From contig NZ_FOAP01000014.1 of assembly GCF_900109545.1 (NCBI RefSeq), positions 1 through 64,000 of the forward strand: a stretch of 64,000 bases of DNA, in the 5' to 3' direction. Below are positions 1 through 31,990 of this stretch, in pieces; position 1 is the stretch's first letter; the number at the start of each line of letters is the position of its first letter. Source of the stretch: Stigmatella aurantiaca. Lineage in GTDB: Bacteria; Myxococcota; Myxococcia; Myxococcales; Myxococcaceae. Below the pieces are notes generated by a model that saw only the letters and a program-made list of their open reading frames with translations, ran no database searches and was not told the DNA's origin. Made by a program: the position numbers and the translations under genes.

Positions 1-41
1 TGGGTCCTTCCGATGCTCTGAAGTGCCTGAGAACTCTTCAG

Positions 42-434
42 TTATCGGTGGGTCCCCACCCGGTGATCCCTCCCCCGGTGATCGATCCGGGCTAGGAGCA
101 CTCGGGCGACTACCGCCTTGAAGGCCCGCAGGTCTCCTGTCTTCGCCAGGAAGCTTTCACCTCGTGGGAGCAGCAAGCCTACCTCTCCACTGTGAACGAT
201 GATGGGAACCTTCCGCAGCTGCTCGTCCGCGCGGATGCGCCGACAGAACTCAAGCCCATTCATCCGTGGCATCGAAAAGTCCGTGATGATGAGATCCGGC
301 TTCAGCACGGCTGCCAGTGCCAGCGCCTTCTCGCCATCAGGAGCGCTAGTGACGGAATAACCGAGTTGCTCCAAGAACTCAGCGTAGATCTCGACTACAT
401 CCAAGTCATCATCCACCAACAGGATACTGTACAT
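42..434 (-). CDS. Single-domain response regulator (CheY-like receiver)
   Basis: This 130-aa protein is a stand-alone receiver domain. The acidic pocket DDD is at residues 8-10, the phospho-acceptor is D52 in the strand ending ITDFSMP, the conserved Ser/Thr position is S82 (VHSG) and the invariant Lys is K98. No output domain follows; only about 15 basic residues trail the receiver. It should be phosphorylated by a histidine kinase encoded elsewhere and pass the signal by protein contact or phosphotransfer. The ATG at 434 has a weak purine-rich stretch upstream. It is divergent from the sigma factor gene, with about 165 bp between them that could hold promoters for both. No cognate kinase is adjacent, so it is an orphan regulator. 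Assignment to the receiver family is firm; the specific pathway is unknown. Confidence 0.9.
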   Translation of the reverse strand: MYSILLVDDDLDVVEIYAEFLEQLGYSVTSAPDGEKALALAAVLKPDLIITDFSMPRMNGLEFCRRIRADEQLRKVPIIVHSGEVGLLLPRGESFLAKTGDLRAFKAVVARVLLARIDHRGRDHRVGTHR

Positions 435-601
435 AGGAACCCCACCTTTTTTCCGGAACGGTCGCGCCGTCCGCCATCACTCGGATCGGTCCCTCATGCC
501 GCGAATGTGAACAGCAAGCGGCTCTGCACACCGCTCGTCATGGCTAGGAACAGTGTCTAGATCATTTGGAGAGGTATGCTTTTGCCTGGCCAGGAGAGGA
601 C

Positions 602-1228
602 ATGAGGCCGAACGAGCGCGAGGCATGGGAGCGGCGCATCCATGACCTCTGGAGGCAAGGAGAGGTGGGAACCGCCGTCGAAGTAGCCCTCTCGGCCTAT
701 AGGCCGGAGTACTTGAAGCTCCTGAATTCAATCCTCCACGATCGGGAACGGAGCCAGGAAGCCTACAGCTCCCTGAGCGAGGCCCTGCTGAGAGACTTGC
801 CAGCCTTCCGCTGGGAGTGCTCGTTTCGGACTTGGTCGTACCGAGTGGCCCGCAACGTTGGCTATCGCCTCCTCGCTTCGCCGATGAGACGCGAGCAGCC
901 CGTGAGCCATGGGGCCTTCGCGCACGAGGTTCAGCCCGAACGCTCCGGGACTGATCCTTGGCTCCGGACGCAGGTCAAGGACCACTTCCGAGCCTTGCGC
1001 GAGCAGCTCCATCCCCATGAACAACGAATCCTGACGCTCCGAGTAGACCAGCGGATGTCCTGGACCGAGGTAGCAAGGGCGATGGCAGGCTCAGATGAGT
1101 CCCTGAACACTGCGGACCTCATGCGCCGGGCGACCGTCCTGCGTCAGCAGTTCCAGCGGATCAAAAACCGCCTCCGGGAGCTCGCCGAGCAGGACGGCCT
1201 GCTCTCTCAGGAGGATCAACCCTTGTAG
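602..1228 (+). CDS. RNA polymerase ECF-type sigma factor
   Basis: This roughly 208-aa protein has the two conserved parts of an ECF sigma factor. A sigma-2 core lies around residues 55-95, with the FRTWSYRVARNV helix that binds core polymerase and the -10 element. A C-terminal helical sigma-4 region starts near LHPHEQRILTLRV. The helix-turn-helix looks stretched between TEVARAM and the final RIKNRLREL helix compared with typical ECF factors. I chose the ATG at 602 because AGGAG lies five bases upstream; an in-frame TTG at 566 would add 12 residues and has no better ribosome site. No anti-sigma gene is adjacent: downstream is a convergent prenyl synthase and upstream a divergent receiver protein. 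Its trigger and regulon cannot be read from here. Confidence 0.85.
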   Translation: MRPNEREAWERRIHDLWRQGEVGTAVEVALSAYRPEYLKLLNSILHDRERSQEAYSSLSEALLRDLPAFRWECSFRTWSYRVARNVGYRLLASPMRREQPVSHGAFAHEVQPERSGTDPWLRTQVKDHFRALREQLHPHEQRILTLRVDQRMSWTEVARAMAGSDESLNTADLMRRATVLRQQFQRIKNRLRELAEQDGLLSQEDQPL

Positions 1229-1244
1229 CGGGCTCAAGTCCGCT
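1227..1244. terminator. Small hairpin spanning the convergent sigma factor / prenyl synthase stops
   Basis: Arms AGCGG (1227-1231) and CCGCT (1240-1244) flank an 8-base loop. The left arm overlaps the sigma factor stop codon and the loop contains the stop of the opposing prenyl synthase gene. There is no U-tract, so it is at best a weak bidirectional terminator or 3' end stabiliser. Confidence 0.3.
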
Positions 1245-2265
1245 CAAGCACCCAGGTGGGCAGCGCCTCGATGAAGCGCTTGTCCGGCGAGTCAGGCAGG
1301 TCGCCGTAGGCCAGCGAGAACTCGTGGAGCGCGGCCCCGGCAAGCCCGTGGGCCACCTGCCGCGCGTATTCTATCGAGCCGTACCGGTCCATCCGCTCCC
1401 GGACCCAACGAATGTCCTCTAAGGTCCGCGCAGCGCGTGGAGAGCCGAGCATGCGCGACAGCAGGACGCGCTCCTCCGCATTCGCGGCGCCGAGCAGATG
1501 GATGAGCATCAGCGTACGCTTGCCCTCCAGGATGTCGCCGTTGATTTCCTTGCCGTAGCGAGCCTCGTCGCCCACGAGGTTCAAGAGATCATCTTGGATC
1601 TGGAAGGCGGCGCCAACGAAGAAACCGAAGCGGAGGTAGCGGTCGAGCCCCACTCCATCACGCGTGCCGATGAGGGCGCCCACTCGCAGTGGGTAGATGG
1701 TGCTGTACCAGCAGGTCTTCTTCAGGACCATTCGCAGATAGTCGGCCTCCCCCAGCTCGATGACATTATGCTGGCGCCACCAAAGTTCGAGCGCTTGCCC
1801 CTCTACGGACTCGCGAGCCATACGCTCTGCCTCTTCCAGAACCCGCAGGGCGAGTCGAGAGCCCAACGCTTCGACATTCTCGATGAGCGGGCGCAGGCTC
1901 AGGACGGCCAGCGCGTCCCCCACGTTGACTGCGATGGGGACCCCGTGGCGCAAATGCAGGGTGGGGCTCCCTCGCCTCGCCTCGCTCTCGTCTTCCACGT
2001 CGTCGTGGACGAGGAAGGCGTTGTGGAGCAGTTCAAGGGCCACTGCAGAGTTCAGGGCTTCCGAGGGGCGGGCCCCGAATGCGCGCGCGGTGGCGAGACA
2101 GAGGCTGGCCCGGAGCGAGCGTCCTCCCCTCTCGGGATAATCCGCCACGAGCGCGTCGAACCCCTCATGGGCTCGTCCGCCCCGAAGGTACTCCTTCATC
2201 CGAGCCTGGGACGCGGCTCCGTACTCCGCGAGCCGCTCCCGAACGAACGAGGCAGTAGCAGCCAT
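1234..2265 (-). CDS. Polyprenyl (geranylgeranyl-type) diphosphate synthase
   Basis: This 343-aa all-alpha trans-prenyltransferase should condense isopentenyl diphosphate with an allylic diphosphate. The first aspartate-rich motif DDVED is at residues 88-92. The second is DDLLN at about 225-229, with Asn in place of the usual last Asp, as also seen in some geranylgeranyl synthases. KK-T and GKRT motifs for diphosphate binding are also present. There is no two-residue insertion in the first motif, and Ala/Phe precede it at -5/-4, so chain length cannot be assigned from sequence. The ATG at 2265 shares one base with the stop of the upstream phasin-like gene (TGATG), implying translational coupling; a GTG one codon earlier is possible. 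It is the last gene of a four-gene minus-strand operon with two lipid-type oxidoreductases. Confidence 0.9.
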   Translation of the reverse strand: MAATASFVRERLAEYGAASQARMKEYLRGGRAHEGFDALVADYPERGGRSLRASLCLATARAFGARPSEALNSAVALELLHNAFLVHDDVEDESEARRGSPTLHLRHGVPIAVNVGDALAVLSLRPLIENVEALGSRLALRVLEEAERMARESVEGQALELWWRQHNVIELGEADYLRMVLKKTCWYSTIYPLRVGALIGTRDGVGLDRYLRFGFFVGAAFQIQDDLLNLVGDEARYGKEINGDILEGKRTLMLIHLLGAANAEERVLLSRMLGSPRAARTLEDIRWVRERMDRYGSIEYARQVAHGLAGAALHEFSLAYGDLPDSPDKRFIEALPTWVLERT

Positions 2266-3074
2266 CACGGGCTCCCATCACTCGGAAGGATTCTCACCGC
2301 GAGGGTACCGCGCGGCAGGCTCGTTCGCTCATCGATGATGACGCCACTGTAGTTTCCCGCTGGCTGGCTGTCCTGAATGTGGATGCGGAGAAGGACCCGG
2401 TCCTCCGCCGGAAACCCTTCGATGGCGATGCCCGTCAGGCGTGGCTTGTCCGGCTCAGGTGAGCGCAAATCGAGCACCCTAAGCGGAAGACTCGCCGACT
2501 GGGGACGTAAGTCGATCGAGAGTTCGATGCGCCGTGTGGACTGGATGTCCAGAGAAAACCCCAGCAGGGTCGCGGCGTCGGCTTCCCGCCCCGCTGAAGC
2601 CGCCTGCGACGAGACCGCTCCGGATGCCACCCGAGGCTCTGGTTCGCAACCTGCCGAGAACGGACCTGCTGTCCCCGAGGCGGGAGTGCCGCCCGGAGCT
2701 TGCATAGGGGGACGCCCTGCTCCGAACCTCTCCATCATCTCCAGCCACAGGCTCGCGAAGTCCGAGAAGCTCTGCACCATGGCCCCTATGCGCCGCGGGA
2801 GTTCCTCATGGGGCATCGCTCCACCCAGGTAGGGAGGCCACAGGGCGCGCGCCACGTTCTGTCCCTCGTGCATGTACTCATCCATCACCCGGTAGCCCAT
2901 CTCCACGCCGCGGGAGATGGGCTCGCTGGGCGGCACACCTCCTCCCGGCGGCGCGGAGGAACCCGAGGTCCAGGGAGGTCCGAAAGGTCCCGGCGCTCCG
3001 AACAACGTCCACCAGTTCCGGATGGGCTGCGTGCGCTCGGGCTCCGGTCTCTTAACTCTCTCGCGGGAATCCAT
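2265..3074 (-). CDS. Phasin-like protein of unknown function, prenyl synthase operon
   Basis: I do not recognise a named family for this 269-aa protein. The N-terminal 55 residues are rich in Pro/Gly and probably disordered. A predicted helical stretch at about 57-120 (YRVMDEYMHEGQ through LWLEMMERFG) is amphipathic, as in phasins that coat storage granules. A Pro/Ala/Gly/Ser linker follows. The last 85 residues look like a beta-sandwich with alternating hydrophobics and end in PAGNYSGVIIDERTSLPRG. The 206-aa protein encoded at 7743-8363 has the same layout and a similar ending (PGLYLGLIY), so the two may be distant relatives. It lies 27 bp downstream of the FAD oxidoreductase and is coupled to the prenyl synthase. 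A scaffold or coat for a lipid body or enzyme assembly is inference only. Confidence 0.8.
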   Translation of the reverse strand: MDSRERVKRPEPERTQPIRNWWTLFGAPGPFGPPWTSGSSAPPGGGVPPSEPISRGVEMGYRVMDEYMHEGQNVARALWPPYLGGAMPHEELPRRIGAMVQSFSDFASLWLEMMERFGAGRPPMQAPGGTPASGTAGPFSAGCEPEPRVASGAVSSQAASAGREADAATLLGFSLDIQSTRRIELSIDLRPQSASLPLRVLDLRSPEPDKPRLTGIAIEGFPAEDRVLLRIHIQDSQPAGNYSGVIIDERTSLPRGTLAVRILPSDGSP

Positions 3075-3101
3075 GGGCTTCTCCGTCGGAATGAAGGGAC
3101 A

Positions 3102-5270
3102 TCAGGGGTGATCGAACCCGATGATCTCGTCCAGGCGCGGTGCCCCCGAGATCGCATGGGCCGCCAGGCGACCCGACATCACGGCGGCCTCGACACACCC
3201 TTCGTTGAAGCCACAGTCCGTCCAGTCTCCCGCGACGGTGAGGTTGTCATAGGTGTTGTCCAGCGGGGAAACGCGGAAGCGCAGGCTCCCGGGTAATGAG
3301 AGGGTGTAACGATCCGTGGGGCTTACGTTCGCCGTCCAGTACTGCGAGCGAAAGCGCTCCTCGCCCTCCGCGAGCGGAGTCGCATCCGGCTGCCCGCCGG
3401 GATCCATGAGCAGGTCCCACCGGAACTCGCCTGGCACCCGGCAGGCCCAGGGCCACAGGTGGACAATGTCCTTGTTGAGGAAGTGGACGCAGTGACGTCG
3501 CACCCGCTCGTGCTGCGCCTCCGGAAAATTGGGACTGTCGCGCTCCTCTTCGGGCGGATCCGGCAACACGCTGCAGAAGTAGGCGATGGAACGAGGAGCC
3601 CGGGGCCAGCTCTCCTCCGAAGCGAGGTGGGACATGTCCGCCCATGTATCGAAGGGCTCGATGAAGCCCGAGATGTTGATCGGCGGCTCAGTCCATCCGA
3701 GTTCCCTCATCCCGGCGCTCATCCAGATCTGGAAGGCCTGGGTCGGCACAGACTTGACGCGCTCGACCATCTGGCGCCAGCGAGCATCCCGTTCCACCAG
3801 TTCCCTGCACACGTGACGGACCGCCCCGCCGCCCACCCCGAGGATGGCGAGATCGAAATCCTCGCCCATGCGCAGGGTCCGGCTCCTCACCTTCCGCCGA
3901 TCCCAGTGAGACTCGAACTTCCACCCCTCCTGCCGGAGCCGCTCGCCGTCTACGAGCTGCCGGTAGTCGGGCTGCGCGGGCCAGCAGGGCAGCCCTCGCA
4001 CGTCGACGAGCGGCTGGTACTCACCTCCCCCGAGCACCTCGGCCTGCACGTCGAACTCGAGTGCCTCTACATACGGGTGCTCCCCCACTCCGAGCCGTGC
4101 CGGGTCCACGAGCCGGACACTCTCCAGCCTGTGGAAGAACTCGAACCGGACGCCTCGCCGCGTCAACACCTCGTAGAAAGGGGCGAAGACCACGTCCCCC
4201 ATCCCCGCCCGCATCTTCCAAAAGAAGGCGCCGCGGTAGGTGAAGAAGGCGCGGAGGGCACCACGCAAGGCCTGCCCGGCGGCGATTGCGGGCCGCTTCA
4301 CATCGCCCTCCTCGTAGGCAAAGGCGAGATCATAGAGCGCCCGGACGAAAGCGCTGTTGATCGAGCCCTCAGAGGCTCCATGGAGGCGCAGCCACTCCCG
4401 GCAGTCGTAGTCGTTGATAGCGTCGAACCCTCGGGGATCATTCAGGAGCCCGGAGCGAAGTGTGCCCCTGACAACCGCCAGCACCAGGTCGATGATCTCC
4501 CAGAGGCGACGCAGTTCATCATCGCCCGTGACCAAGCGCTCGAATTGGCTGCGAAGAGCCGAGGCGACCGTGTCATGGAACTGGAGGAGCAGATTCTCTG
4601 GGTAGCGGCGCAGCCTCCCGAGCACGCCCTCCATGAGCCCAAGGGCCTCCACCACGGCGGCCAGCGTCGCGAACTGGCCCAGCTTGAGCAGGCGCGACAT
4701 CGACTCCAGTAGGGCTTCGGGAGCTCCCGATCCCACACGCGAGGTTGCGCCCGTTCCGGGCGGCGCTCGGCCCCCAGGCACCTGCACCGCGACCAGCAGG
4801 GTGCGCACCAGTTCCAGACTCCGCGCTAGGTAGTCGGCGATCGTCCATTTTGGAAACGTGTTCCCGGGGTCTCCCGGGAGCCCCTCGAAGGGAGGAAGGT
4901 GGACCTTCCACGGTGACCAGCGTCCGCTGGGCGACCAGTCCGCCACTCCCGTGAAGTGATCCGGAAAGAAGGCGTCCCGCCAGTCAGCTATGGGACAGGT
5001 GGCGGGGCTCCGCTTCAGCTCGCCATAACACTCTCGTAGCAAGCGGAAGGCATTTTCATAGAACCCCATCCACAGGTGGAGGCCGTGCTCATGGATGCGG
5101 TCGGCCGGCCCACGGCCCGACGCGCCCTTGCCCCCGAGCCTCCAACCTAGCTGGTACAGGGTAACCCGGTACTTGCCCTCGTGTTCGGGCCTCGTGAGTT
5201 CGAAGGCTGCGGTGATGCCCGCACAACCTCCTCCCACGATCGCGACTTCCACAGGATGCTTCCGGATCAT
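3102..5270 (-). CDS. FAD-dependent oxidoreductase, phytoene desaturase/HpnE-like superfamily
   Basis: This roughly 722-aa flavoprotein has an N-terminal dinucleotide-binding motif VAIVGGGCAG (residues 9-18), then LYQLGWRLGGKGASGR, the second conserved stretch of the carotenoid desaturase/amine oxidase group. The C-terminal FAD contact is NLTVAGDWTDCGFNEGCVEAA. At about 720 residues it is much longer than a typical CrtI (about 500), with a large helical insertion in the middle. The ATG at 5270 is chosen because the Rossmann strand begins eight residues later and a G-rich stretch precedes it; an upstream ATG at 5357 would overlap the previous gene. In the operon with a prenyl diphosphate synthase and a saccharopine-reductase-like protein, an isoprenoid or polyene substrate is likely but unproven. 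No phytoene synthase is present nearby. Confidence 0.85.
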   Translation of the reverse strand: MIRKHPVEVAIVGGGCAGITAAFELTRPEHEGKYRVTLYQLGWRLGGKGASGRGPADRIHEHGLHLWMGFYENAFRLLRECYGELKRSPATCPIADWRDAFFPDHFTGVADWSPSGRWSPWKVHLPPFEGLPGDPGNTFPKWTIADYLARSLELVRTLLVAVQVPGGRAPPGTGATSRVGSGAPEALLESMSRLLKLGQFATLAAVVEALGLMEGVLGRLRRYPENLLLQFHDTVASALRSQFERLVTGDDELRRLWEIIDLVLAVVRGTLRSGLLNDPRGFDAINDYDCREWLRLHGASEGSINSAFVRALYDLAFAYEEGDVKRPAIAAGQALRGALRAFFTYRGAFFWKMRAGMGDVVFAPFYEVLTRRGVRFEFFHRLESVRLVDPARLGVGEHPYVEALEFDVQAEVLGGGEYQPLVDVRGLPCWPAQPDYRQLVDGERLRQEGWKFESHWDRRKVRSRTLRMGEDFDLAILGVGGGAVRHVCRELVERDARWRQMVERVKSVPTQAFQIWMSAGMRELGWTEPPINISGFIEPFDTWADMSHLASEESWPRAPRSIAYFCSVLPDPPEEERDSPNFPEAQHERVRRHCVHFLNKDIVHLWPWACRVPGEFRWDLLMDPGGQPDATPLAEGEERFRSQYWTANVSPTDRYTLSLPGSLRFRVSPLDNTYDNLTVAGDWTDCGFNEGCVEAAVMSGRLAAHAISGAPRLDEIIGFDHP

Positions 5271-5319
5271 CGGCCCCCCCGGGATGATACTCACATTGAG
5301 AAGATCTCTCTCTGATCTG

Positions 5320-6429
5320 TCAATTGCCTGCGGGGCCCGCCGCCCATGTATGTCCATTCACAGACACTTCAGGTGCTGAAAGATCTTCCAGGGACACACC
5401 CTCGAACGCGAGTATGAAGTCCGGCCCATAGACTCGAGCCGGTGTCTGGAATCCCACCTCCAGGTCGCCCGCGAGGACACGCTCCACGATGGCCAGCCCT
5501 GTGGTGCAAGTGAATGTATAGACTTCCGGTGTCCGGAGGCGGCTCTGGAAGCAGTGGCCCCTTTCATCCTCCGCCTCCGCCACAATGATGCCGTGGCCTG
5601 CAGCGCGCTGCGCCTCGGTAGGCCCTTGCGGCATCACTCTCGCCAGGGCCTCCAGCCAGACATGCCCTGCTTCTGTCGCGAGCATGCCGCCGAAGCAACG
5701 GTTTGCCATCAACATCATCTGGAAGGAAGGAATGGCCTCACAAAACACCGTGATATCTGGAATACCTGTCGAGTAATATGCGGTACAGACATCCCCCCAG
5801 CTCACGGCGATGCTCGGACGCGGTCCTTGCCCGTAGTCGAACGCTCTAACGAGCGTACCGGGGGGAATGCCTCTGAGTTCCCCCCTTCGCCGGATGCTAA
5901 CCGTCTGCCCGACTCCCTCGGCGACGGTCCGGAACGAGCCGCGGGAGATTCCCTCAAGCCCGGAGATTCCGATCGCAAGGCGCCGGGCTCCTCGGCCCCT
6001 GCGTGCCACGTGCAAAGCAAGACAATCCGACGGGACGACATCGAAGCCGACCCCTGGCATGAGCATCACGTGGCGCTCCCGGGCCTGCGCATCACTCTGG
6101 CGAACCCCCTCCATCGCCGCCACCTCGCCACTGAGATCCAGGTAATGAACCCCCGCGCGCAAGCAGGCGCTCACCATGGGAGAGCAAGTCGAGGAGAAAG
6201 GCCCCGCAGCGTGGAGAACAACCCGGATCCCACGCAGCGCCTCCTCCAGCCTCGCATCCAGGCGAGCTACCCGATACTCGAGCCCCAGGTCCGTAGCGAA
6301 TGGGGCCAACCGAACTTCATCGCGGCCACACAGCACCGGGCGCAGCCCGCGGCTCTTCGCCGCGCGAGCAAGCAACCGTCCGGTGTAGCCAGTCGCTCCA
6401 TAGATGAGCAAAGGATCAGAACTTCCCAT
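5320..6429 (-). CDS. Saccharopine dehydrogenase-like NAD(P)-binding oxidoreductase
   Basis: This 369-aa protein starts with a Rossmann fold: LLIYGATGYTGRLLA at residues 7-21, then CGRDEVRLA, and LHAAGPFS in the middle. This is the pattern of the saccharopine-dehydrogenase-like family, whose bacterial members include trans-acting enoyl reductases of lipid synthesis as well as true saccharopine enzymes. Lysine metabolism is unlikely, given its place as first gene of an operon with a desaturase-like flavoenzyme, a phasin-like protein and a prenyl synthase. Reduction of a double bond in an isoprenoid or acyl chain fits better, but this is inference. The ATG at 6429 faces the start of the plus-strand operon at 6557, so the 127 bp between them should carry the promoters of both arms. 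Confidence 0.85.
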   Translation of the reverse strand: MGSSDPLLIYGATGYTGRLLARAAKSRGLRPVLCGRDEVRLAPFATDLGLEYRVARLDARLEEALRGIRVVLHAAGPFSSTCSPMVSACLRAGVHYLDLSGEVAAMEGVRQSDAQARERHVMLMPGVGFDVVPSDCLALHVARRGRGARRLAIGISGLEGISRGSFRTVAEGVGQTVSIRRRGELRGIPPGTLVRAFDYGQGPRPSIAVSWGDVCTAYYSTGIPDITVFCEAIPSFQMMLMANRCFGGMLATEAGHVWLEALARVMPQGPTEAQRAAGHGIIVAEAEDERGHCFQSRLRTPEVYTFTCTTGLAIVERVLAGDLEVGFQTPARVYGPDFILAFEGVSLEDLSAPEVSVNGHTWAAGPAGN

Positions 6430-6501
6430 CTTGGTTCCCCCTCAGCAGCCTACGACGGGACACCCGCTCCAATGCACGGCTGTGACTGGAAAAACAAGAC
6501 A

Positions 6502-6521
6502 TCTGACACATATTGATCAGA
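6502..6521. promoter_or_regulatory. Candidate inverted repeat in the shared divergent promoter region
   Basis: TCTGA (6502-6506) and TCAGA (6517-6521) form a spaced inverted repeat with a 10-base AT-rich spacer. It sits between the two divergent arms of the prenyl/phasin locus, in the most AT-rich part of the 127-bp intergenic region. A regulator could control both operons from here. The arms are short, so chance is a real alternative. Confidence 0.25.
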
Positions 6522-6556
6522 AGCAGAACCTAGACCTCCACACTGGTGAACGCTCC

Positions 6557-7762
6557 ATGCTTCTCAGACAGCAGCCTGGCAATCCACCTCTGCTCCGCCC
6601 TCCAGGGCCGCTGGACCAAGAGCGCTCAGCCTTGTTGAGCGTGTTCCTCTACACCCGGCGCTGGGACATCCTCCCTCCTGGCATGAGGGGCCTCCAAAGC
6701 CTGGAGAACCTGCTCAACAGCTTCCCGCCGCACCTCCGTCCCCTCTCCCCAAGGAACGCCTTCGAAGAGCTCGTACATGAAGGAAACCGTTATCCCTGGC
6801 AGAGCGTGCATAATATGGCCGTCGCAAACCTGAGCACCCGAGCGTTCGATTTTACACAAAAAGTGGCACGCCAGCCGGACGAGGCACAGACCGAAGCGCT
6901 GAAGGATCTTGAACACCTGCTCGGTAGGGAAGGCGTGCAGTTGCTTAGCGACAAGCTTCGCTCGCAGCCTTCACTACGCGCAGCCGTCGCACAGTTCTCG
7001 CGATTGGCGTATGGCCTCTCCGAGATAGACTCGATGTGGGCCACTTTCGTACCGAGTCCCCAGGCCACGATAGACCTGGAGACGCTGGTTACGACCGTCC
7101 AAGACTCCGCACTTTCAGAGCTAGACTTCGACAAACTCGTGTCCGTGCTCGACCCACGGGAATGGAAGCAATCGAAGTTCTGGAGGAGATCTGACAGAGT
7201 CACGATCCTGCCGGGCCAATCCACGAGCCAGGTTATAATCGATACGCCTCCCTCCGGGAGTTCCTGGAGCGGGAATCTCTACGAGTATGTCGAGTGGAAC
7301 TGGAACGTCTACTCGATCTCGGCATTTCAGGTGTACCTGAACATCCAGTTCGAAGTGATGCCTGAACCCAAAGGCCAGCGGGAGATCAACATGGACTTCT
7401 CGCTCCACTCATGCCGGGGCAGCATGCTCTACGCGCGGGTGGCGGACACGGGCGTCGACGTCGACAGCGGGTTCGTGCATGTGACCGAGAGACTCCCCGG
7501 TAAGTTCATCATCAACGCCGAGAAGCGGATCCGCTATTCCAACATCGTGGACAGCCGCTCCGCGCTCCAGGGATTTCCTGGGGGTGGAATGCTCCTTTCG
7601 CTCTTGGCTCCCGCCGTCGTAGGGCTCTGGATGCACGAACTCATCGCGCACATCTATTCGCGCGAGCGGATGGTCAATCTTCATCTCCAGTCTGAGTCCT
7701 CTGCCCCTCAGGGGGATGCCGTCCTGCGAGGAGGAATGAGCCATGACGAACTCTCGCATTGA
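6557..7762 (+). CDS. Hypothetical protein, first gene of the kinase operon
   Basis: This 401-aa protein is not one I recognise. The N-terminal 200 residues look mostly helical, with many Leu/Arg/Glu. The middle (about 210-330) alternates hydrophobic and polar residues and carries many Trp/Tyr (NLYEYVEWNWNVYS), suggesting a beta-rich domain. A hydrophobic stretch near residues 340-365 (MLLSLLAPAVVGLWMHELIAHI) could be a membrane helix or buried hairpin. I chose the ATG at 6557; the frame stays open further upstream but runs into the divergent promoter region. The last 20 bases overlap the start of the next gene, which points to one transcript with the second phasin-like protein and the kinase/ATPase fusion. 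A role with the neighbouring isoprenoid enzymes is inferred from position only. Confidence 0.7.
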   Translation: MLLRQQPGNPPLLRPPGPLDQERSALLSVFLYTRRWDILPPGMRGLQSLENLLNSFPPHLRPLSPRNAFEELVHEGNRYPWQSVHNMAVANLSTRAFDFTQKVARQPDEAQTEALKDLEHLLGREGVQLLSDKLRSQPSLRAAVAQFSRLAYGLSEIDSMWATFVPSPQATIDLETLVTTVQDSALSELDFDKLVSVLDPREWKQSKFWRRSDRVTILPGQSTSQVIIDTPPSGSSWSGNLYEYVEWNWNVYSISAFQVYLNIQFEVMPEPKGQREINMDFSLHSCRGSMLYARVADTGVDVDSGFVHVTERLPGKFIINAEKRIRYSNIVDSRSALQGFPGGGMLLSLLAPAVVGLWMHELIAHIYSRERMVNLHLQSESSAPQGDAVLRGGMSHDELSH

Positions 7763-8363
7763 GCCAGAGGTGGACTTCGGGGAACTCGGCGCCACTCCAG
7801 CCGTCCAGTTCTGGAACGCGATGCTGGGAGCCGTGAGTTCCCTTTGGCAGGAGCAGTTCTTGTACCTGTCGAGCCTCTCGACATCGGCCTTGACGGCCCA
7901 GAACCCCGGGGAGGTGATACAGAAAGGGCTACTGCGGCTGGCGATGAACTGGTTCTCGCTCGTTCCATTCCCGTTCGAGTGGTGGACACGCTACACCCAG
8001 CAGGTCCCCTCGGTGTTCTTCGTTCTGGACCAAGAGGCCCAGACCGCATCCCCTGTCACAGTGCCGCTCCCGATCGTGCTCGGAGAGCAGCAGAGAATCT
8101 CGGTAACGAAACTCCAGAAAGTTGGCGGGGGGGCCTTTCTGCCCGGTACTATCTTCAGCATCGAGTGCATAGACAGAACCCTGCTCCGAGTGAAGCCCGT
8201 CAGCCTCAAGCAAGGTAACGGGCTCAAGGAGCCCGGTCTCTATCTGGGCTTGATCTACACCCAAAACAACGGGGAGCGTCATCCGCTCGCGCTGCTGTGT
8301 GTGCTCCATGAGGAAACGGAAACCATCTCCTCACCCGAGCCCGGACCTGACTCTCAAACCTAG
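7743..8363 (+). CDS. Second phasin-like protein
   Basis: This 206-aa protein has a helical first half (about residues 22-75, rich in Leu/Trp/Ser, no charge clusters) and a beta-rich second half. The C-terminal half contains VTVPLPIVL, DRTLLRVKPV and PGLYLGLIY. These appear in the same order as ELSIDL, EDRVLLRIHI and AGNYSGVII in the minus-arm protein encoded at 2265-3074. I read this as weak but ordered similarity, suggesting two divergent members of one family on the two arms of the locus. No signal peptide is visible. It overlaps the upstream gene by 20 bases and lies 23 bases before the kinase fusion, so it is inside that operon. Function unknown; a coat or scaffold role is inference. Confidence 0.75.
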   Translation: MTNSRIEPEVDFGELGATPAVQFWNAMLGAVSSLWQEQFLYLSSLSTSALTAQNPGEVIQKGLLRLAMNWFSLVPFPFEWWTRYTQQVPSVFFVLDQEAQTASPVTVPLPIVLGEQQRISVTKLQKVGGGAFLPGTIFSIECIDRTLLRVKPVSLKQGNGLKEPGLYLGLIYTQNNGERHPLALLCVLHEETETISSPEPGPDSQT

Positions 8364-8386
8364 CAACAGGCGGGAGCTTCCGCCCC

Positions 8387-11300
8387 ATGGCTGATTCCAT
8401 CCACCCGAGTAGTGAGACGCCGCAGTTCCTCGAGACCGAACGCGTCCAGGATTCGGACTCGGATCTCCAGGATACGCTCCTGAGAAAGGCCGCCGAGAAG
8501 CTGTCCAAGGCCCCCATGCCGCTCCCCGGAGACCGTCTCGGAGGCCTGAGTGGTCACCGATATGAGATCCTTGAGACGCTGGGGGGCGGCGGAATGGGAC
8601 GGATCTTCCGCGCCCTGGACCATGAGTTGCAACGCACCGTGGCCCTTAAGTTCCTTCTTCCCAGTGCGAGGCACACCAGTGTGAAGGGCGTCTCGCTGCT
8701 CCGCGAGGAAGCGCAGGCCATTGCCCGGCTTGACCACGAGAACATCGTCCGGGTCCACGATGTCTCCGAGTGGAGCCCTCTCCTCGCGAAGGATGGCCCT
8801 CTCGTCCCGATGAAGGTCCCCTTCCTGGTCATGGAGTACTTGGAGGGAGAGCCCCTGCATGCACTCTTGCAGCGGGAGAGGCCTGGCCTGCGGCGCACCT
8901 TCGAGATCATGACCGATGTGGCGAAGGGGCTAGCGCATGCGCACGAGCGTGGCCTCGTCCATCGGGATCTCAAACCGAGCAATGTCTTCCTGCTCGCCCA
9001 TGGGAAGACCAAGCTCCTCGACTTTGGCCTCGCCTGGCTCCTGGCCGACGCCTCGCCCACCCCGAGCATGGCGGGAGTGGGAACGCCCGCGTACATGGCC
9101 CCGGAGCAATGGCGCGGGGAGCCCCCCGACACACGTGCGGACATCTGGGCTGCCGGGCTGCTCCTCTTCGAGCTGCTCACCGGAGAGCGCCCCTTCCCGA
9201 AGATGGGTTCCCGGGACTTCCAGGCTCGCATCACCTCCGAGGAGCCAATGCCCTCCGTGCGTGAGCGCTGTCCGGAGCTGCCCGAGGAGGTAGTGCGGCT
9301 GGTGGCCTCGTCCCTGGCCAAGAACCCCCTGGAGCGTCCTGCCACGGGAGCCACGCTGCTGCAGCGGCTCAGCGAGTTGGAGGAGCGCCTCGGGCTCCGG
9401 CCCCAGCACTCTCAGGCTGACCATGCCGAGCGGCGGCAAGTGACACTCCTGTCCTGCAGCCTCTCCCTAGCCACCGGGCCCGGCAGGCCACTCGCACTCG
9501 ATGATCCCAGCGAGGTGGAAGCTGCCTTTCACCGCGCTTGCGCGCGGATCATCCACCAGCACGGCGGAAACGTCACCACGTGTGTGGGAACCGAGGTGCT
9601 CGCGTGCTTTGGCCACCCCATCACTCGGGAGGATGACGCGGCTCGCGCCGTCCATGCAGCGCTGTGCCTGAAGGAATCACTCCCAAGAGAGCTGCGAATC
9701 CTGGGGGAGCAGGGGCTTTCCGTGAAAACAGGGCTCCATACGGGCCTGGTATCCATGGACGACACCGCTCCAGAACTCCAGGGCGTGGCGGCCGCCATCC
9801 AGGGAGAGGCTCCACGGGTGGCATCCTGGCTGGCCACCCAGGCCGAGCCTAACACGATCCTCTTGAGCGACCGGACCTATGCCCTGGTCCGAGGCCACTT
9901 CGAGACCCGCTTCCTGGGCCAGCGGGCCTTCGCGGGGCTCCTGGGACCAAGACAGGTTAGCCTCCATCATGTGCTCGGCGCACGCAGGCTCGTGAGCCGC
10001 TTCGATCGCTCGCTCGTCGTCGGCTCGCTGACGCCGCTGGTGGGACGGGAGCGCGAGTTGCGGCGTCTCTTGGCGCTGCGGAGCGAGGCCCTCCATGGGC
10101 GCGGAGTCTTCATCTTGCTCCGGGGGGAGGCGGGCATTGGCAAGTCCCGCCTCCTCCAGGAACTCCATAACCGGGATACTCGCCGCTCTAGTATCTGGGT
10201 CCGATGCCAGTGCTGGCCACAATTCAAGAACACCGCCTTCCACCCGCTCACTAACTGGCTCCACCGTTGCCTGGGATTCTCTCCCGACGCGCTTCCCGAG
10301 GAGAAACAGCGGAGGCTGGAGGAGCAGCTCGCTCAGCAAGGGCTGTCCTCGGAGCACGTATCCGCCCTGGCCTCCATCCTCTCATTGCATGTCGCTGAGG
10401 AGCCCGCATTCCGCCAGCTCGCATCGGAGCATCAGCGGGAGAAGATCCTGAGCGCCCTGTTGGCTTTCATCCAGGCCCAAGCCGCGCGACAACCTCTCGT
10501 CCTCGTGGTGGAGGATCTGCACTGGGCGGATCCGTCCACCCTCCAGTTTTTAAAATTCCTCCTAGCGCATGTGGAAAAGCTCGGAGCTTGCGTCCTCCTA
10601 ACGGCGCGCACCGAATGGGAGCACTCCTGGAGCGGGCGCCCCAGCGTGCACCTGCTGGAACTCAATCCTCTCTCACCCGAGTGCACCGTGGCCATGCTCC
10701 GGGAGGCTTCTCGCGGCAGGCCGCTGTCGGCCGAGGGGCTCAAGCAGCTCGCCAACCTGACGGATGGGATTCCCCTCTTCATTGAGGAGCTGACCCGGGC
10801 AGTGCTGGAGCAGGAGGGGCGAGCAGGCGCCTCGCCCGAAATCACTCCCGTCGCGATCCCTCCCACTCTGCACGAGCTCCTCCGGGCCCGGCTCGACCAA
10901 CTGCCTCCCCGGCGCAAAGCCTTGGTCCAGCTCGCGGCCACCCTGGGCCGGGAATTCAGCTACGAGCTGTTCCGCGCCATCGCATTCCTGGACGAGAGAG
11001 AGTTGCTGCGAGAGCTCGATCAGCTCGAGCAAGCCGGGTTCCTGTTCCGCCAGGGGCACCCACCGTACACGATGTACACCTTCAAGCACACGCTCATCCA
11101 GAATGCCGCCTACCAGTCGCTGCTCCGGAGCACGCGACAGCGCTACCACGCGCGAACGGTCCACGTGCTGTCCGAGCAGTTCCCCGACATGGCCGAGGAT
11201 CAGCCCGAGCTACTGGCCCAGCACTCCACCCGCGCGGGCTTGGTAGAGTTGGCCGTCAATCAATGGCGGCAGGCCGGCCAACATGCGGCGGCGCAGTCCG

Positions 11301-12571
11301 CCTTCGCCGAGGCGATCAGCCACTTCCACCGCGCGCTTGAGCAACTCGCGTTACTCCCAGCTTCGCCAGAGCGGGACAATCTGGAGATCACTCTGCGTGC
11401 AGAGCTGGGTCAGGCACTCGTCACCTCCCGAGGGTTCTCCTCCCAGGAGGTCGAGAAAGAATACACGCGCGCACGCCAGCTCTGTGAGCAATTCGGAGAC
11501 GTCCCCCTCTCCGTGCTCTGGGGGATCTGGGTCGTCGTGCTGGTCCGGGCGGACCCCGAGGGCTCGGACCATCTCGCAGCGCACTTCCGGCGCCAGTTGG
11601 AAAAACGCGAGGATCCCGCAGCCCTGACGGTGCTCCATTCGGCACTCGGCTCCTTGGCCTTCTGGCGAGGCGAATACACCCTCTGCAAGCAGCACTGCCT
11701 CCAGGCGAAGACGCTCTTCGACAGTCAGGGCGTCTCCGAGCTGCTGTTCCAGATCCGCGGAAGCAGCCAGAGCCACGTGTCGGAGCAGATGCTCTATGCC
11801 TACCTGTACCTGGCCTTCAGCGAGGTGATGCTAGGGCACGCTGACAGGGCTCGTGAAACCTATGCGGAGGCTCTTGAGCACGCCGAGGCCACGCGACACC
11901 CCTATGCCATCGCGACCGCGCTCATCTTCGGCACGGCGATCGCACGCGAAGCGGGAGCACCGGAGGAAGCGCTAGAGGCTTCCCACCGCGCAATGGCCCT
12001 CTCTACTGAGCATGGCATTCCCATCACGCTGGCGATTGGCAATTGCATCAACGGCTGGGCCACCGCCCAGCTCGGTGACATGGGGGAGGGAATCGCCAGG
12101 CTCCAGGAAGGGCTCTCGTTGCTGCGCTCCATGGGAGCCCTGCTCGTTTACCCTTATTACCTGGGGTACCTGGCCAGCCTTTACCTGGCGACCGGGCAGA
12201 TCGGCGAAGGACTGACGAGCGTGGAAGCCGGGTTGGAGAGCGCCGAGAAGCACAGGGTGCGCAACAGCGTCCCAGAGCTGCGGCGGATCCAGGGTGAGCT
12301 CATGCTCCGGCAAGGAGAGGAGGCAGCGGGCAGAGCACACCTGGAGCAGGCGCTCATGCAGGCCCGCGCCTTGGGTGCGAAGCTCCATGAGCTTCGTGCG
12401 GCCGTGAGCCTGGGGCGCTTCATGACGCACGCGGGCGAGAAGGAAGCAGCACGTGCGCTCATCACGGAAGCGCTCAGCGGGGTCGCTGAGGGATCCGGCC
12501 TCGCTGATTTCAAAGCCGCCCAGCGGTTCCTGGCCGAGTTCCTCGATCTCCCTCCTTTGCCATCGGGCTGA
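8387..12571 (+). CDS. Ser/Thr kinase - pseudo-cyclase - STAND-type ATPase - TPR fusion protein
   Basis: This 1394-aa protein has four parts. The Ser/Thr kinase (about 59-330) has GGGGMG at 66-71, Lys88, HRDLKPSN near 191 and DFG near 211, so it looks active. A class III cyclase homology domain follows (about 348-535), but both metal aspartates are replaced: VTLLSCS stands where FAD-I is expected and GTEVLACF where GDG is expected, so it should not make cyclic nucleotide. An AAA/NACHT-like ATPase has Walker A GEAGIGKS near 580 and Walker B LVLVVEDLHWAD near 703. The rest is TPR-like helical repeats to the end. The order matches the kinase/cyclase fusion proteins common in myxobacteria. It follows two unknown proteins in one operon and probably reads a signal for that locus. 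Confidence 0.93.
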   Translation: MADSIHPSSETPQFLETERVQDSDSDLQDTLLRKAAEKLSKAPMPLPGDRLGGLSGHRYEILETLGGGGMGRIFRALDHELQRTVALKFLLPSARHTSVKGVSLLREEAQAIARLDHENIVRVHDVSEWSPLLAKDGPLVPMKVPFLVMEYLEGEPLHALLQRERPGLRRTFEIMTDVAKGLAHAHERGLVHRDLKPSNVFLLAHGKTKLLDFGLAWLLADASPTPSMAGVGTPAYMAPEQWRGEPPDTRADIWAAGLLLFELLTGERPFPKMGSRDFQARITSEEPMPSVRERCPELPEEVVRLVASSLAKNPLERPATGATLLQRLSELEERLGLRPQHSQADHAERRQVTLLSCSLSLATGPGRPLALDDPSEVEAAFHRACARIIHQHGGNVTTCVGTEVLACFGHPITREDDAARAVHAALCLKESLPRELRILGEQGLSVKTGLHTGLVSMDDTAPELQGVAAAIQGEAPRVASWLATQAEPNTILLSDRTYALVRGHFETRFLGQRAFAGLLGPRQVSLHHVLGARRLVSRFDRSLVVGSLTPLVGRERELRRLLALRSEALHGRGVFILLRGEAGIGKSRLLQELHNRDTRRSSIWVRCQCWPQFKNTAFHPLTNWLHRCLGFSPDALPEEKQRRLEEQLAQQGLSSEHVSALASILSLHVAEEPAFRQLASEHQREKILSALLAFIQAQAARQPLVLVVEDLHWADPSTLQFLKFLLAHVEKLGACVLLTARTEWEHSWSGRPSVHLLELNPLSPECTVAMLREASRGRPLSAEGLKQLANLTDGIPLFIEELTRAVLEQEGRAGASPEITPVAIPPTLHELLRARLDQLPPRRKALVQLAATLGREFSYELFRAIAFLDERELLRELDQLEQAGFLFRQGHPPYTMYTFKHTLIQNAAYQSLLRSTRQRYHARTVHVLSEQFPDMAEDQPELLAQHSTRAGLVELAVNQWRQAGQHAAAQSAFAEAISHFHRALEQLALLPASPERDNLEITLRAELGQALVTSRGFSSQEVEKEYTRARQLCEQFGDVPLSVLWGIWVVVLVRADPEGSDHLAAHFRRQLEKREDPAALTVLHSALGSLAFWRGEYTLCKQHCLQAKTLFDSQGVSELLFQIRGSSQSHVSEQMLYAYLYLAFSEVMLGHADRARETYAEALEHAEATRHPYAIATALIFGTAIAREAGAPEEALEASHRAMALSTEHGIPITLAIGNCINGWATAQLGDMGEGIARLQEGLSLLRSMGALLVYPYYLGYLASLYLATGQIGEGLTSVEAGLESAEKHRVRNSVPELRRIQGELMLRQGEEAAGRAHLEQALMQARALGAKLHELRAAVSLGRFMTHAGEKEAARALITEALSGVAEGSGLADFKAAQRFLAEFLDLPPLPSG

Positions 12572-12580
12572 GCTGACGGC

Positions 12581-13085
12581 TTATGCGGCGGACGCCAGCT
12601 GGTGCGTGGTGGCTGGTAGCCGGATGCGCAGACACGCTCCACCCTCTTGCCGGTTCGTCGCCGTCAGCGTCCGCCGAACTGCTCCACGAACTCCCGTGAC
12701 AGCATCAGCCCGAGCCCTGTCTCCTGCTCGGAAGACTTCGTCGTAAAGAACAGCTTGAGAAGCTGCGGCAGCACCTCCGCCGGGAACCATTGTCCTCAAT
12801 GAGCAGTTGGACCGTCTCACCCTCCATGCGGCCCACGGCCCGAACCTCGCTGTCCAGGCTCCGACGTGCCTCCAGCGCGTCACTGGCATTCACCAGCAGG
12901 TTGAGGATGAGCTGCGCCAGCCGCTGACACACCACGTGGACCACACCACGTGGATCTCAAGCAATTCCGCGAGCACCTCCACCCGAAGCCGCGCCACGCC
13001 CTTGAGCCGCACGAAGGCCAGCCGCGCCGCGTCCTTCACCATCTCCGAGAGCGAGCAACGCGAGGGCTCTCCGTCTCGTCCATGC
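12581..13085 (-). pseudogene. Histidine kinase C-terminal remnant with frameshifts
   Basis: Read on the minus strand in shifting frames, this stretch gives successive pieces of one histidine kinase ATPase domain: SLSEMVKDAARLAFVRLKG, then CQRLAQLILNLLVNASDALE (N box), then LLIEDNG (G1), then LLKLFFTTK and TGLGLMLSREFVEQFGG (F/G2 boxes), then GACLRIRLP at the end. At least three frame changes are needed, near 12945, 12792 and 12670. No dimerisation domain with the catalytic His, and no sensor, remains; the remnant stops abruptly near 13085. It is a decayed gene. Sequencing errors could explain one shift but hardly three. Confidence 0.75.
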
Positions 13086-13107
13086 GCGAGAAGCCCGCTG
13101 CTCAGCA

Positions 13108-13402
13108 GTCCGGTGGCCCTCACCGTCGTGTGTCCCGGCCTGGTGGAGACGAACATCGTGCGCCCGGGGCGAGCGGTGAGCGACGCGCAACGCAAGGCCG
13201 AGGCGCACTTCATCACCGGCCGCGCCATCCCGGCCGAGCAGGTCGTCCGCCGAGTCGTCCAGGGCATCCAGAGCCAATCCGCCCAGGTCCTGGTGGGACT
13301 TGACTACCATCTCGTCGATTGGATGGCCCGGCTATCGCCTTGGTTGTCCCAAGTGGTGACCGCGCGGTTGTCCCAGCGCATGCCCCTCTTAGACAGAGCT
13401 CC
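13108..13402 (+). pseudogene. Short-chain dehydrogenase C-terminal remnant
   Basis: The plus strand reads VALTVVCPGLVETNIVRPG, then AIPAEQVVRRVVQGIQSQ, then a hydrophobic tail. This is the last roughly 95 residues of a classical short-chain dehydrogenase, after the catalytic Tyr-Lys pair. The Rossmann half and active site are missing, and the frame has no proper stop before it runs into the opposing endonuclease gene. It abuts the histidine kinase remnant head to head, so an old recombination or deletion joined two broken genes here. Confidence 0.7.
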
Positions 13403-29569: not shown

Positions 29570-31990
29570 GTGCTTGCCTCCGATACCCTCGTTCTCGATG
29601 GCCGCTTCCGGGTTCTCCAGCCCCTGGGCGCCGGAGGCATGGGACAGGTGTACCTGGGCGAGCAGGTGTCGCTGGGCCGCAAGGTGGCCATCAAGGTCCT
29701 CCACCAGGATCTGCACCTGCAGCCGGGCATGGCGGAGCGCTTCAAGCGCGAGGCCCAGCTCCTGTCGGCGGTGGAGCACCCGGCCGTCGTGCGGATCATC
29801 GACTTTGGCGAGTCCGAGCACTCGGCCTGCCTGGTGATGGAGCTGGTGGAGGGCGAGAGCCTCAACGACGTGCTCCAGAAGGGGCCCCTGGCCCCGGAGC
29901 GCGCCCTCACCGTGCTGCGCCAGCTCGCCGAAGGGCTGAGCGCCATCCACGCCCAGGGCATCATCCACCGCGACATCAAGCCGGAGAACGTCTTCCTCAC
30001 CAGAGGCCCCCGGGGCGAGCAGGCGCGGCTCCTGGACTTCGGCATCGCGCGGCTCGTCGAGCCCGACGCGGACAGCGCCGTGAGCCAGGTGGGCATGGTG
30101 CTGGGCACCCCGGAGTACCTGTCCCCCGAGCAGGCCGTGGGCGCCCGCGCCGACGTGCGGAGCGACCTGTACTGCCTGGGCGTGCTCGCCTACCGCGTGC
30201 TCTCCGGGCAACTGCCCTTCCCGGGCCCCAGCCCGCGCCAGTTCATCGCCCAGCATGCCAGCGCCGCCCCCCTGCCCCTGGACCGGGCCGCGCCGGGGCT
30301 GGCCACGCACCCCACGCTGGTGCCCCTGGTGATGCGGCTGCTGGAGAAGGAGCCCTCGCGGCGCTTCCAGACCGCCCACGAGCTGGCGGACGCGCTGTCC
30401 TCCGCCGCCACCCTGCCCTTGCCGGCCTCGGCCCTGCCCCCGGGCGCGACCAGCCTCGCGCAGCCGGTCTCTACCGGCACCGCGGCCTTCGGGGCGCCGC
30501 CGCCCGTGCCGGACGGAGAGGCCCCCAGCGAGGGCCCCCGGGTCTGGAGCCCGCCCGCGGGCAGCAGCGCCACGGCCGCCTTTGGCGGCCCGCTGCCGCC
30601 CGTCAGCTCGGGCACGGCCATCTTCGGGACCGCGGCGCCGGCCTCCAGCGGCACGCTGACGAGCAAGCCGCAGAACCTCACGGTGATGCTCACGAGCATC
30701 CAGGGCTTCTCCGAGCTCGTCTCCCGGCAGACGCACGAGGAGCACCTGCGCATGCTGCAGACCTACGAGGAGCTCCTGGTGCCCGCGCTGCGCGAGCGCG
30801 AGGGGAAGCTCGTGCAGAAGCGCGAGGACTCGCTGCTCGCGGTGTTCGCCTCCCCCACGGGCGCGGTGCTCTGCGGCATGGAGATGCAGGACCGGCTCTG
30901 GCGGCACAACCAGACGCAGCCCCCGGAGGGCCAGCTCCGTGTGCGCCTCTGCCTGCACACGGGCGAGGTGCTGCTCACGCGCGGCATGGTGATTGGCGAG
31001 CCCATGCAGATCGTCAAGTCCGTGGAGCAGGTGGCCCTGGCGGACGAGGTCACCTTCACCGAGTCCGTGAACCTGGCGCGCAACCGGGCCGGGACGGAGA
31101 GCGAGCCCTGCGGCACCATCGCCCTGCCCGGCGTGGGCGGGGCGCTCCAGCTCTACCGCGCCAAGCGCGCCGCCGAGGGCCTCCCCTTTGGCGTCCCGCC
31201 CTCCACGGACGCCTCGCTGGCCAAGAAGACCGGGATGCTGGCCACACGTCCCCGGCTCGCCTGGCCGCGGGGCACCGGCCTGCAGGGGCGCACGCTCCGG
31301 CTCGCGGTGGGGGGCGCCGTCGCGGGACTGTTCCTGCTGGGAAGCGGGGTGGCGGTGTGGCACTGGAACCAGAGCCCCGACATCCAGGCGCGGCGGCTGC
31401 TGAAGGCGGACAAGCCCGCCGAGGCGCTCAAGCGCATCGACGCGGTGCCCCTGGAGGAGCGCAAGCAGGACGCGGCGCTCCAGGGCACCCGGGCGCGGGC
31501 GCTGCACGCGCTGAACCGCCACACCGAGGAGCTCAACACCCTGCTGGCGCTGGAGGCGGACGCCAAGGAGGACGTGGCGCCCGAGGTGCTGGAGGGGCTC
31601 GCGGAGGACTTCGGCGAGGACGAGGGGGACAAGGGGCTGCGCAAGCTGCTCGCCGCGTTTCCCAAGAAGGCGCTGCACGGACACTTCGAGTCCCTGGCCG
31701 AGGGTGAGCACTCACCCAAGCAGTGGGGCGCGCTGCGCTACCTGGAGGCCATGCAGGACACCGAAGGGGTGGACCTGGTGCGCGTGTACACGGCGGCGCT
31801 GGCGGCGAAGGGCTGCGGCGTCCGGGCCAAGGCGGCGCGGCGGCTCGGGGCCCTGGGAGACGCGGACGCGGTGCCCGCGCTCACCAAGCTGGCCAGCGCG
31901 CCCAAGGAGCGGACCGTGTTCTCCGGAAAGAACTGCGGCCAGGACGAAGCGGCCGACGCGCTTCAGCTCCTGAAGAAGAAGGCCCCCTGA
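29570..31990 (+). CDS. Ser/Thr protein kinase with degenerate cyclase domain and membrane anchor
   Basis: This protein of about 806 aa starts with a PknB-type kinase (about 12-280): LGAGGMGQVYLG, Lys near 38, HRDIKPEN near 133 and DFG near 155, all intact. A Pro/Ala/Ser/Thr-rich linker follows. Residues 369-525 resemble a class III cyclase (LTVMLTSIQGFSEL, EDSLLAVF, LCLHTGEV), but the first metal Asp is Ser and the Asn/Arg pair is missing, so activity is doubtful. A single membrane helix at about 577-600 (AVGGAVAGLFLLGSGVAVWHW) leads to a helical C-terminal domain, probably outside the cytoplasm. The GTG at 29570 is preferred over the GTG at 29501 because the kinase begins soon after; no strong ribosome site is visible for either. 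It is divergent from the giant TPR gene. Confidence 0.9.
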   Translation: MLASDTLVLDGRFRVLQPLGAGGMGQVYLGEQVSLGRKVAIKVLHQDLHLQPGMAERFKREAQLLSAVEHPAVVRIIDFGESEHSACLVMELVEGESLNDVLQKGPLAPERALTVLRQLAEGLSAIHAQGIIHRDIKPENVFLTRGPRGEQARLLDFGIARLVEPDADSAVSQVGMVLGTPEYLSPEQAVGARADVRSDLYCLGVLAYRVLSGQLPFPGPSPRQFIAQHASAAPLPLDRAAPGLATHPTLVPLVMRLLEKEPSRRFQTAHELADALSSAATLPLPASALPPGATSLAQPVSTGTAAFGAPPPVPDGEAPSEGPRVWSPPAGSSATAAFGGPLPPVSSGTAIFGTAAPASSGTLTSKPQNLTVMLTSIQGFSELVSRQTHEEHLRMLQTYEELLVPALREREGKLVQKREDSLLAVFASPTGAVLCGMEMQDRLWRHNQTQPPEGQLRVRLCLHTGEVLLTRGMVIGEPMQIVKSVEQVALADEVTFTESVNLARNRAGTESEPCGTIALPGVGGALQLYRAKRAAEGLPFGVPPSTDASLAKKTGMLATRPRLAWPRGTGLQGRTLRLAVGGAVAGLFLLGSGVAVWHWNQSPDIQARRLLKADKPAEALKRIDAVPLEERKQDAALQGTRARALHALNRHTEELNTLLALEADAKEDVAPEVLEGLAEDFGEDEGDKGLRKLLAAFPKKALHGHFESLAEGEHSPKQWGALRYLEAMQDTEGVDLVRVYTAALAAKGCGVRAKAARRLGALGDADAVPALTKLASAPKERTVFSGKNCGQDEAADALQLLKKKAP

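Follow-up and report, generated by a model that had tools for sequence, protein, structure and literature searches.

The question raised by a divergent gene cluster of Stigmatella aurantiaca, at positions 1234 to 12571 of contig NZ_FOAP01000014.1 (RefSeq assembly GCF_900109545.1), is what its enzymes make and what the proteins encoded beside them contribute. The window, that is, the whole stretch analyzed here, covers 64,000 nucleotides (positions 1 to 64,000 of the forward strand). A preliminary description had listed seven open reading frames (ORFs) in the cluster, all of which were found where it placed them: the left arm, on the minus strand, consists of D, C, B and a trans-prenyl diphosphate synthase (IDS), and the right arm, on the plus strand, of E, F and G. 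It had suggested an isoprenoid lipid held in a body coated by two phasin-like proteins (B and F), with a large kinase fusion (G) as sensor or regulator. On balance, we lean toward a dedicated pathway, complete in itself and spread horizontally, for the synthesis or modification of an isoprenoid lipid; in it B would be a partner or scaffold, E a carrier and G an exchangeable component.

The seven-gene neighborhood is a conserved unit. When 193 genomes of the phylum were searched separately with C, E, F and B, C was found at more than 70% identity in the window genome and in seven others, F and B were recovered in the same eight genomes, and E in seven of the eight. The divergent cluster is present in these 8 of 193 sampled genomes, spanning four genera and surrounded by unlike flanks, which bears out the conservation across myxobacteria that the preliminary description had proposed to check. 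Gene calling in the seven other loci showed that the divergent order is kept, with one locus lacking D and E and another lacking D, and the genes flanking them do not match the cluster proteins. Identity among the orthologues is 75-80% for IDS, 71-78% for C and 64-70% for D (five orthologous clusters), and lower for B (46-56%), E (31-36%) and F (24-33%).

Beyond this phylum, C, B and IDS form an ordered core. A scan with C over one genome per species (84,980 species) yielded 70 loci; as they were recovered through C they are not independent samples, and the counts tell little about occurrences without C. Profiles run on these loci detected B in 46, IDS in 44, G-like proteins in 43 and D in 24. 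In 45 loci C and B are neighbors on the same strand, and in 40 B lies directly upstream of IDS, within 42 bp in 39 of them and often with a 4-nt overlap; where IDS seems to be missing from a locus with C and B, the contig ends within the IDS gene. The C-B-IDS order is kept in relatives from at least six bacterial groups. The records with this core come from Myxococcota/Deltaproteobacteria, Candidatus Binatia (Binatota), Acidobacteria and Gemmatimonadetes, and, among the Proteobacteria, from Sulfitobacter, Phaeobacter and other Alphaproteobacteria, from Betaproteobacteria and from Granulosicoccus (Gammaproteobacteria). In a Mycobacterium locus, C and G are accompanied by a D-like gene and by an IDS whose ORF overlaps that of a diverged B (E value 1e-7) just ahead of it. 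In addition, a lipid-type short-chain dehydrogenase/reductase (an HpnA/SdmB-like epimerase, below cut-off) is found in 18 loci.

B accompanies the prenyl synthase as a dedicated, single-copy gene, a relationship that the preliminary description had missed. In all 12 cluster genomes tested, B occurs once and only in the cluster, and strong matches are otherwise few, with 3 among 197 genomes of the order to which a Sulfitobacter belongs and 1 among 199 of the phylum of an Acidobacteriota metagenome-assembled genome. Several of the proteins also share evolutionary history with C: the tree distances correlate at 0.81 for both B and D, at 0.67 for IDS and at 0.78 for a tandem acetoacetate-decarboxylase-like (ADC-like) protein encoded in many relatives (each p 0.001, from 999 permutations). 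G shows no such correlation (rho 0.10, p 0.18), and therefore it appears that B and the enzymes move as a set, whereas regulators are swapped.

More distant homologues of C, found in Acidobacteria, Bacteroidetes, a cyanobacterium and Azospirillum plasmids, accompany ADC-family genes, in several cases with a kinase/ATPase gene, and lack IDS and B. The plasmid matches are all of this distant kind (33-36% identity), and some of them have an ADC gene, or one for a large cyclase/ATPase, next to them. On plasmid p3 of Azospirillum brasilense Sp 7 (locus L145, 8953-19929), two distant C homologues accompany a gene annotated as ADC-family, and the same stretch encodes a large AAA ATPase and an outer-membrane transport protein whose name marks it as FadL-type. 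Separately, the window genome and its relatives carry loci with C paralogues in tandem, at about 42-45% identity (L057 7676-12693, corresponding to G000:C2:75392-79665, and L058, L059 and L060), together with ADC-family genes and large kinase/ATPase genes and with no IDS or B. These tandem loci are a second, equally undescribed cluster type.

Which reactions could such a core carry out? IDS (1234-2265, minus strand) starts with the ATG at 2265, the listed ORF opening at a GTG at 2268, and matches PF00348 (polyprenyl_synt) with 185 bits against a cut-off of 27. The aspartate-rich motifs DDxxD and DDxxN are kept in 45 of 45 aligned homologues, with a small residue five positions ahead of the first motif, and the nearest solved structure in a search of the PDB is the geranylgeranyl diphosphate (GGPP) synthase of Thermus (1wmw, E value 1e-67). 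Since IDS lies below every equivalog cut-off, including that of the GGPP synthase model in NCBIfam (166 bits against 500), its C20 product is put forward as probable. C (3102-5270, minus strand) is, as judged from its sequence, a FAD enzyme of the amine-oxidase/desaturase superfamily, nearest to HpnE and far below the cut-off of that model. Its 751-residue ORF passes the cut-offs of NAD_binding_8 (PF13450, 43.2 bits) and Amino_oxidase (PF01593, 35.3 bits), its best NCBIfam models, HpnE (64 bits, cut-off 283) and zeta-carotene desaturase (34 bits, cut-off 622), are not reached, and a profile search of the PDB gave no match at an E value of 0.01. The start of C is most likely at 5270 rather than at the listed 5357, as alignment shows that Met30 is invariant in eight orthologues, which would give a protein of 722 residues. 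D (5320-6429, minus strand) is a saccharopine-dehydrogenase-like NAD(P)H reductase, scoring 31.4 bits against Sacchrp_dh_NADP (PF03435, cut-off 25.1). At L071 (8892-9962), and likewise at L070, L081, L090 and L128, D is adjoined by an extra protein of 270-365 residues with a weak glycine-zipper match.

These family matches uphold the earlier view of the prenyl synthase and the desaturase as isoprenoid-related enzymes. The cluster contains no phytoene synthase, as had been claimed before, nor a squalene synthase (both PF00494), and the two SQS_PSY genes of the genome lie on other contigs (C23 and C11, the window being on C14). The judgment that this is not an ordinary carotenoid cluster holds.

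The phasin-like label given earlier to B (2265-3074, minus strand) and F (7743-8363, plus strand) is not supported by sequence: neither has a Pfam match and no phasin appears among their PDB profile matches. Phasin identity was rejected by Pfam, by PDB profile search and, for B, by fold search; for 4 of 45 relatives of B, Phasin_2 gave marginal matches with E values of 0.049 or worse, which is not evidence of family membership. B constitutes a new family. A structure prediction gives it a disordered N-terminus, a two-helix hairpin (residues 51-78 and 91-118), a Pro/Ala linker and a well-predicted beta-sandwich domain (172-262). The profile of B weakly matches a beta-N-acetylgalactosaminidase domain (E value 7.5e-4 over about 50 residues), and a fold search returned no match of Z 4 or more, which does not by itself demonstrate a new fold. 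In F, a helical N-terminus precedes a C-terminal domain that is a homologue of the one in B, as indicated by a profile score of 33.2, compared with 15.6 for the best of 60 column shuffles and 20.3 for a reversed alignment.

E (6557-7762, plus strand) has a helical N-terminal part followed by a predicted START/Bet v 1 domain (residues 220-423 of the 452-residue ORF). Its AlphaFold2 model has a mean pLDDT of 62, mostly 80-94 over residues 221-380, and best matches the ZhuI aromatase/cyclase (Z 14.6, root-mean-square deviation 3.1, 153 residues); TTHA0849 and START lipid-transfer domains follow, many START and Bet v 1 chains score above Z 11, and the top Foldseek matches are Bet v 1 family proteins. 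Pfam gave no match for E of the window or its relatives, the SRPBCC clan models included, and it is the fold of the model that would place E in the SRPBCC, or START/Bet v 1, superfamily. Most relatives encode the tandem ADC-like protein in its place; this replacement, like the START fold, had previously gone unseen. Among 42 loci with C, B and IDS, 7 have E without the tandem ADC-like protein, 29 show the reverse, none has both and 6 have neither, although the Fisher p of 6e-5 overstates the case because the loci share ancestry. The six with neither comprise three that reach contig ends, a further two that encode a stand-alone ADC-like protein, and one in which E is matched weakly. Profile comparison revealed no homology between the two proteins (hhalign E values 0.82 and 0.16), so the exchange looks like substitution and not divergence. 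A kinship of E with the ADC-like partner was rejected by the same comparison.

G (8387-12571, plus strand), of 1394 residues, contains Pkinase, Guanylate_cyc, AAA_16 and TPR domains according to Pfam. The kinase motifs HRD and DFG (as in a Ser/Thr kinase) and a Walker A motif are present, whereas the cyclase part, of class III, lacks the usual metal-binding acids; 'pseudo-cyclase' is therefore a fair term, and domain matches and motifs together confirm the kinase/pseudo-cyclase/ATPase/TPR description offered previously. Its counterparts share the AAA_16 core, with additions that include a SAM domain, a zinc ribbon, a combination of kinase, GAF and histidine-kinase domains, or none, and every full locus has a large signaling ATPase, kinase or cyclase nearby. 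G is probably a regulator, which remains the best reading of this protein and agrees with the role proposed at the outset. Outside the cluster, at 29648-31990, another kinase fusion combines a cyclase-like domain with HEAT repeats.

If the pathway that we lean toward operates, IDS would make a short prenyl diphosphate, probably C20, whose chain C may oxidize or desaturate, and D, together with the HpnA-like epimerase of other lineages, could carry out further NAD(P)H-dependent steps. B would act as a dedicated partner or scaffold, its helical hairpin keeping IDS (and perhaps C as well) in an assembly or at a lipid surface. F may be a second such protein, given the C-terminal domain that the two have in common. 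E may bind or carry a lipid intermediate, or act on it like the cyclases of the START fold, and the timing of the pathway would be under the control of G as an exchangeable kinase/ATPase. Several points weigh against this proposal. The cluster has no known product, substrate or phenotype, and literature searches found no published description of it; C, IDS and the epimerase lie so far below the curated equivalog cut-offs that the reactions are guesses. No prenyltransferase, terpene cyclase or phytoene synthase that would use the IDS product was recognized in the cluster, many relatives lack D and most lack E and F, and finding the loci through C leaves them short of independent samples. A bolder version, in which B and F are a new scaffold family that builds a metabolon or plastoglobule-like body as a factory for isoprenoid lipids, carried by horizontal transfer into at least six bacterial groups, with exchangeable kinase/ATPase sensors and an undescribed class of lipid, seems rather doubtful. 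The ordered cross-phylum cassette and its dedicated single-copy partner point to a selected isoprenoid product, none being described in the literature found. The cluster is present in cultured hosts (Archangium, Pyxidicoccus, Polyangium, Minicystis and Sulfitobacter) and offers a functional context for three orphan families, B, F and E.

Other explanations give B a different part. It might be a subunit without catalytic function in a heteromeric prenyl diphosphate synthase, comparable to the small subunits of heptaprenyl and hexaprenyl synthases, and neither scaffold nor coat. No two genes of the cluster are linked as tightly as B and IDS, and they are still adjacent in Mycobacterium, whose C gene is at another place in the locus; two-component prenyl synthases, moreover, figure among the solved relatives of IDS (3aqb, 9kp1). 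On the other hand, IDS retains all catalytic motifs, the B tree follows C more closely than the IDS tree does (0.81 versus 0.67), and an ADC-like gene sits between B and IDS in locus L120. The small subunits of two-component prenyl synthases are helical, whereas in B a long disordered linker leads to a separate beta domain, and we regard a subunit role as rather unlikely. A coat role, in which B and F would form the phasin-like surface of an intracellular lipid body storing isoprenoids and the kinase fusion would sense or regulate it, is unlikely as well. In its favor, an amphipathic-looking helical hairpin is predicted for B, the marginal Phasin_2 matches reach an E value of 0.049 at best, and three betaproteobacterial loci (L103 6957-8174, L106 2744-3967 and L107 3977-5194) have a polyhydroxybutyrate (PHB) depolymerase gene upstream of the cluster. 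Against it, these three loci are related and represent one lineage. To our knowledge a beta domain is not a feature of phasins; B and F both carry one at the C-terminus, and neither Pfam nor PDB profiles gave a significant phasin match. Proteome analysis of isoprenoid-rich lipid droplets of cyanobacteria has found an ADC-family protein in them (PMC12923008), which makes a link to such bodies thinkable, although it is not specific to this locus.

Two further explanations concern the product. The enzymes could form an accessory module acting on carotenoids or squalene whose genes lie elsewhere in the genome, as might be suggested by HpnE and zeta-carotene desaturase being the best NCBIfam models of C, by the two SQS_PSY genes and by the link of NXD1, an ADC-family protein, to neoxanthin in plants. 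This is quite improbable, as the cluster keeps an IDS of its own throughout, C is far under all curated cut-offs, and no carotenoid gene was recognized adjoining the cluster in the loci examined. Finally, IDS and C might make an isoprenoid-derived signal that is bound in the START pocket of E, as abscisic acid is by PYL, and relayed by G. The START domain of E does match plant abscisic acid receptors, among others, and a large signaling protein accompanies each full locus; but the fold is generic and the PYL match is one of fold only, most loci lack E, and G does not co-evolve with the enzymes, so that a signaling system is very hard to credit.

What is the genomic setting of the cluster? It belongs to a low-GC segment (1-13397 of the window) delimited by its GC contrast and by a break in homology: GC is 64.3% in the cluster and 71.6% to its right, and GC at third codon positions is 0.69-0.81 in the cluster genes compared with 0.87-0.95 in four flanking genes measured. 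In three same-genus genomes the right flank is 84-90% identical, with homology beginning at 13398-13402 in all three and no equivalent of the segment next to that flank, and the cluster is absent from the six other genomes of the genus that were searched. The segment is thus variable within the genus, which fits horizontal gain and fits repeated loss too; in the other seven loci the GC of the cluster resembles that of the flanks. The left edge lies out of view because the window opens at the contig start, and no tRNA or long exact repeat was found at the edge of the element. Between the two arms, the start of E is probably at 6557 (Met52) and not at 6404, where the listed ORF of 452 residues opens, as the residues upstream of Met52 are unconserved and have a pLDDT near 30. 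The later starts of C and E leave a divergent region of 127 nt between D and E (6430-6556), probably a promoter region serving both arms, in which no match to a sigma-70 consensus was found. The same low-GC segment encodes, just outside IDS (42-1228), a response-regulator fragment and a sigma factor of the extracytoplasmic function type (Sigma70_r2), and further along the window (41720-47005) a 1761-residue ORF has a strong coding signal and no Pfam match.

Comparison with known systems places the cluster near several of them and inside none, since its identities as a carotenoid, hopanoid, encapsulin cargo or thiazole/oxazole-modified microcin (TOMM) cluster all failed at the defining cut-offs. 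With the hopanoid/squalene (HpnC-HpnD-HpnE, HpnA) and carotenoid clusters it has in common a prenyl diphosphate synthase, a distant relative of HpnE and carotene desaturases in C and, in other lineages, a distant relative of HpnA in the epimerase. Unlike them, the window cluster has no squalene or phytoene synthase or cyclase, and C is about 300 residues longer than HpnE, besides falling far below its cut-off. We know of no counterpart of B, E, F or the ADC-like partner in those clusters. The polyprenyl transferase cargo of family 2 encapsulins (NF041169) is among the best NCBIfam models for IDS, although the score of 170.5 bits lies below the 450-bit cut-off and no encapsulin gene was recognized in the neighborhoods examined. 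Similarly, G matches the TOMM kinase/cyclase fusion (TIGR03903) over nearly its full length (602.6 bits, below the cut-off of 705.75), but no TOMM precursor or maturation enzyme was recognized in the cluster, whose regulator, moreover, is exchanged between loci. The phasins of polyhydroxyalkanoate (PHA) granules (PF09361 and relatives) share with B a small size and amphipathic-looking helices, whereas B has no significant match to them and carries an extra beta domain, and no PHA synthase was recognized adjoining the cluster. Lastly, the ADC-family proteins of cyanobacterial lipid droplets (PMC12923008) and of plants (NXD1) are tied to isoprenoids, as the ADC-like partner encoded in most relatives seems to be, a likeness at the family level; the window cluster has E where the others have the ADC-like protein.

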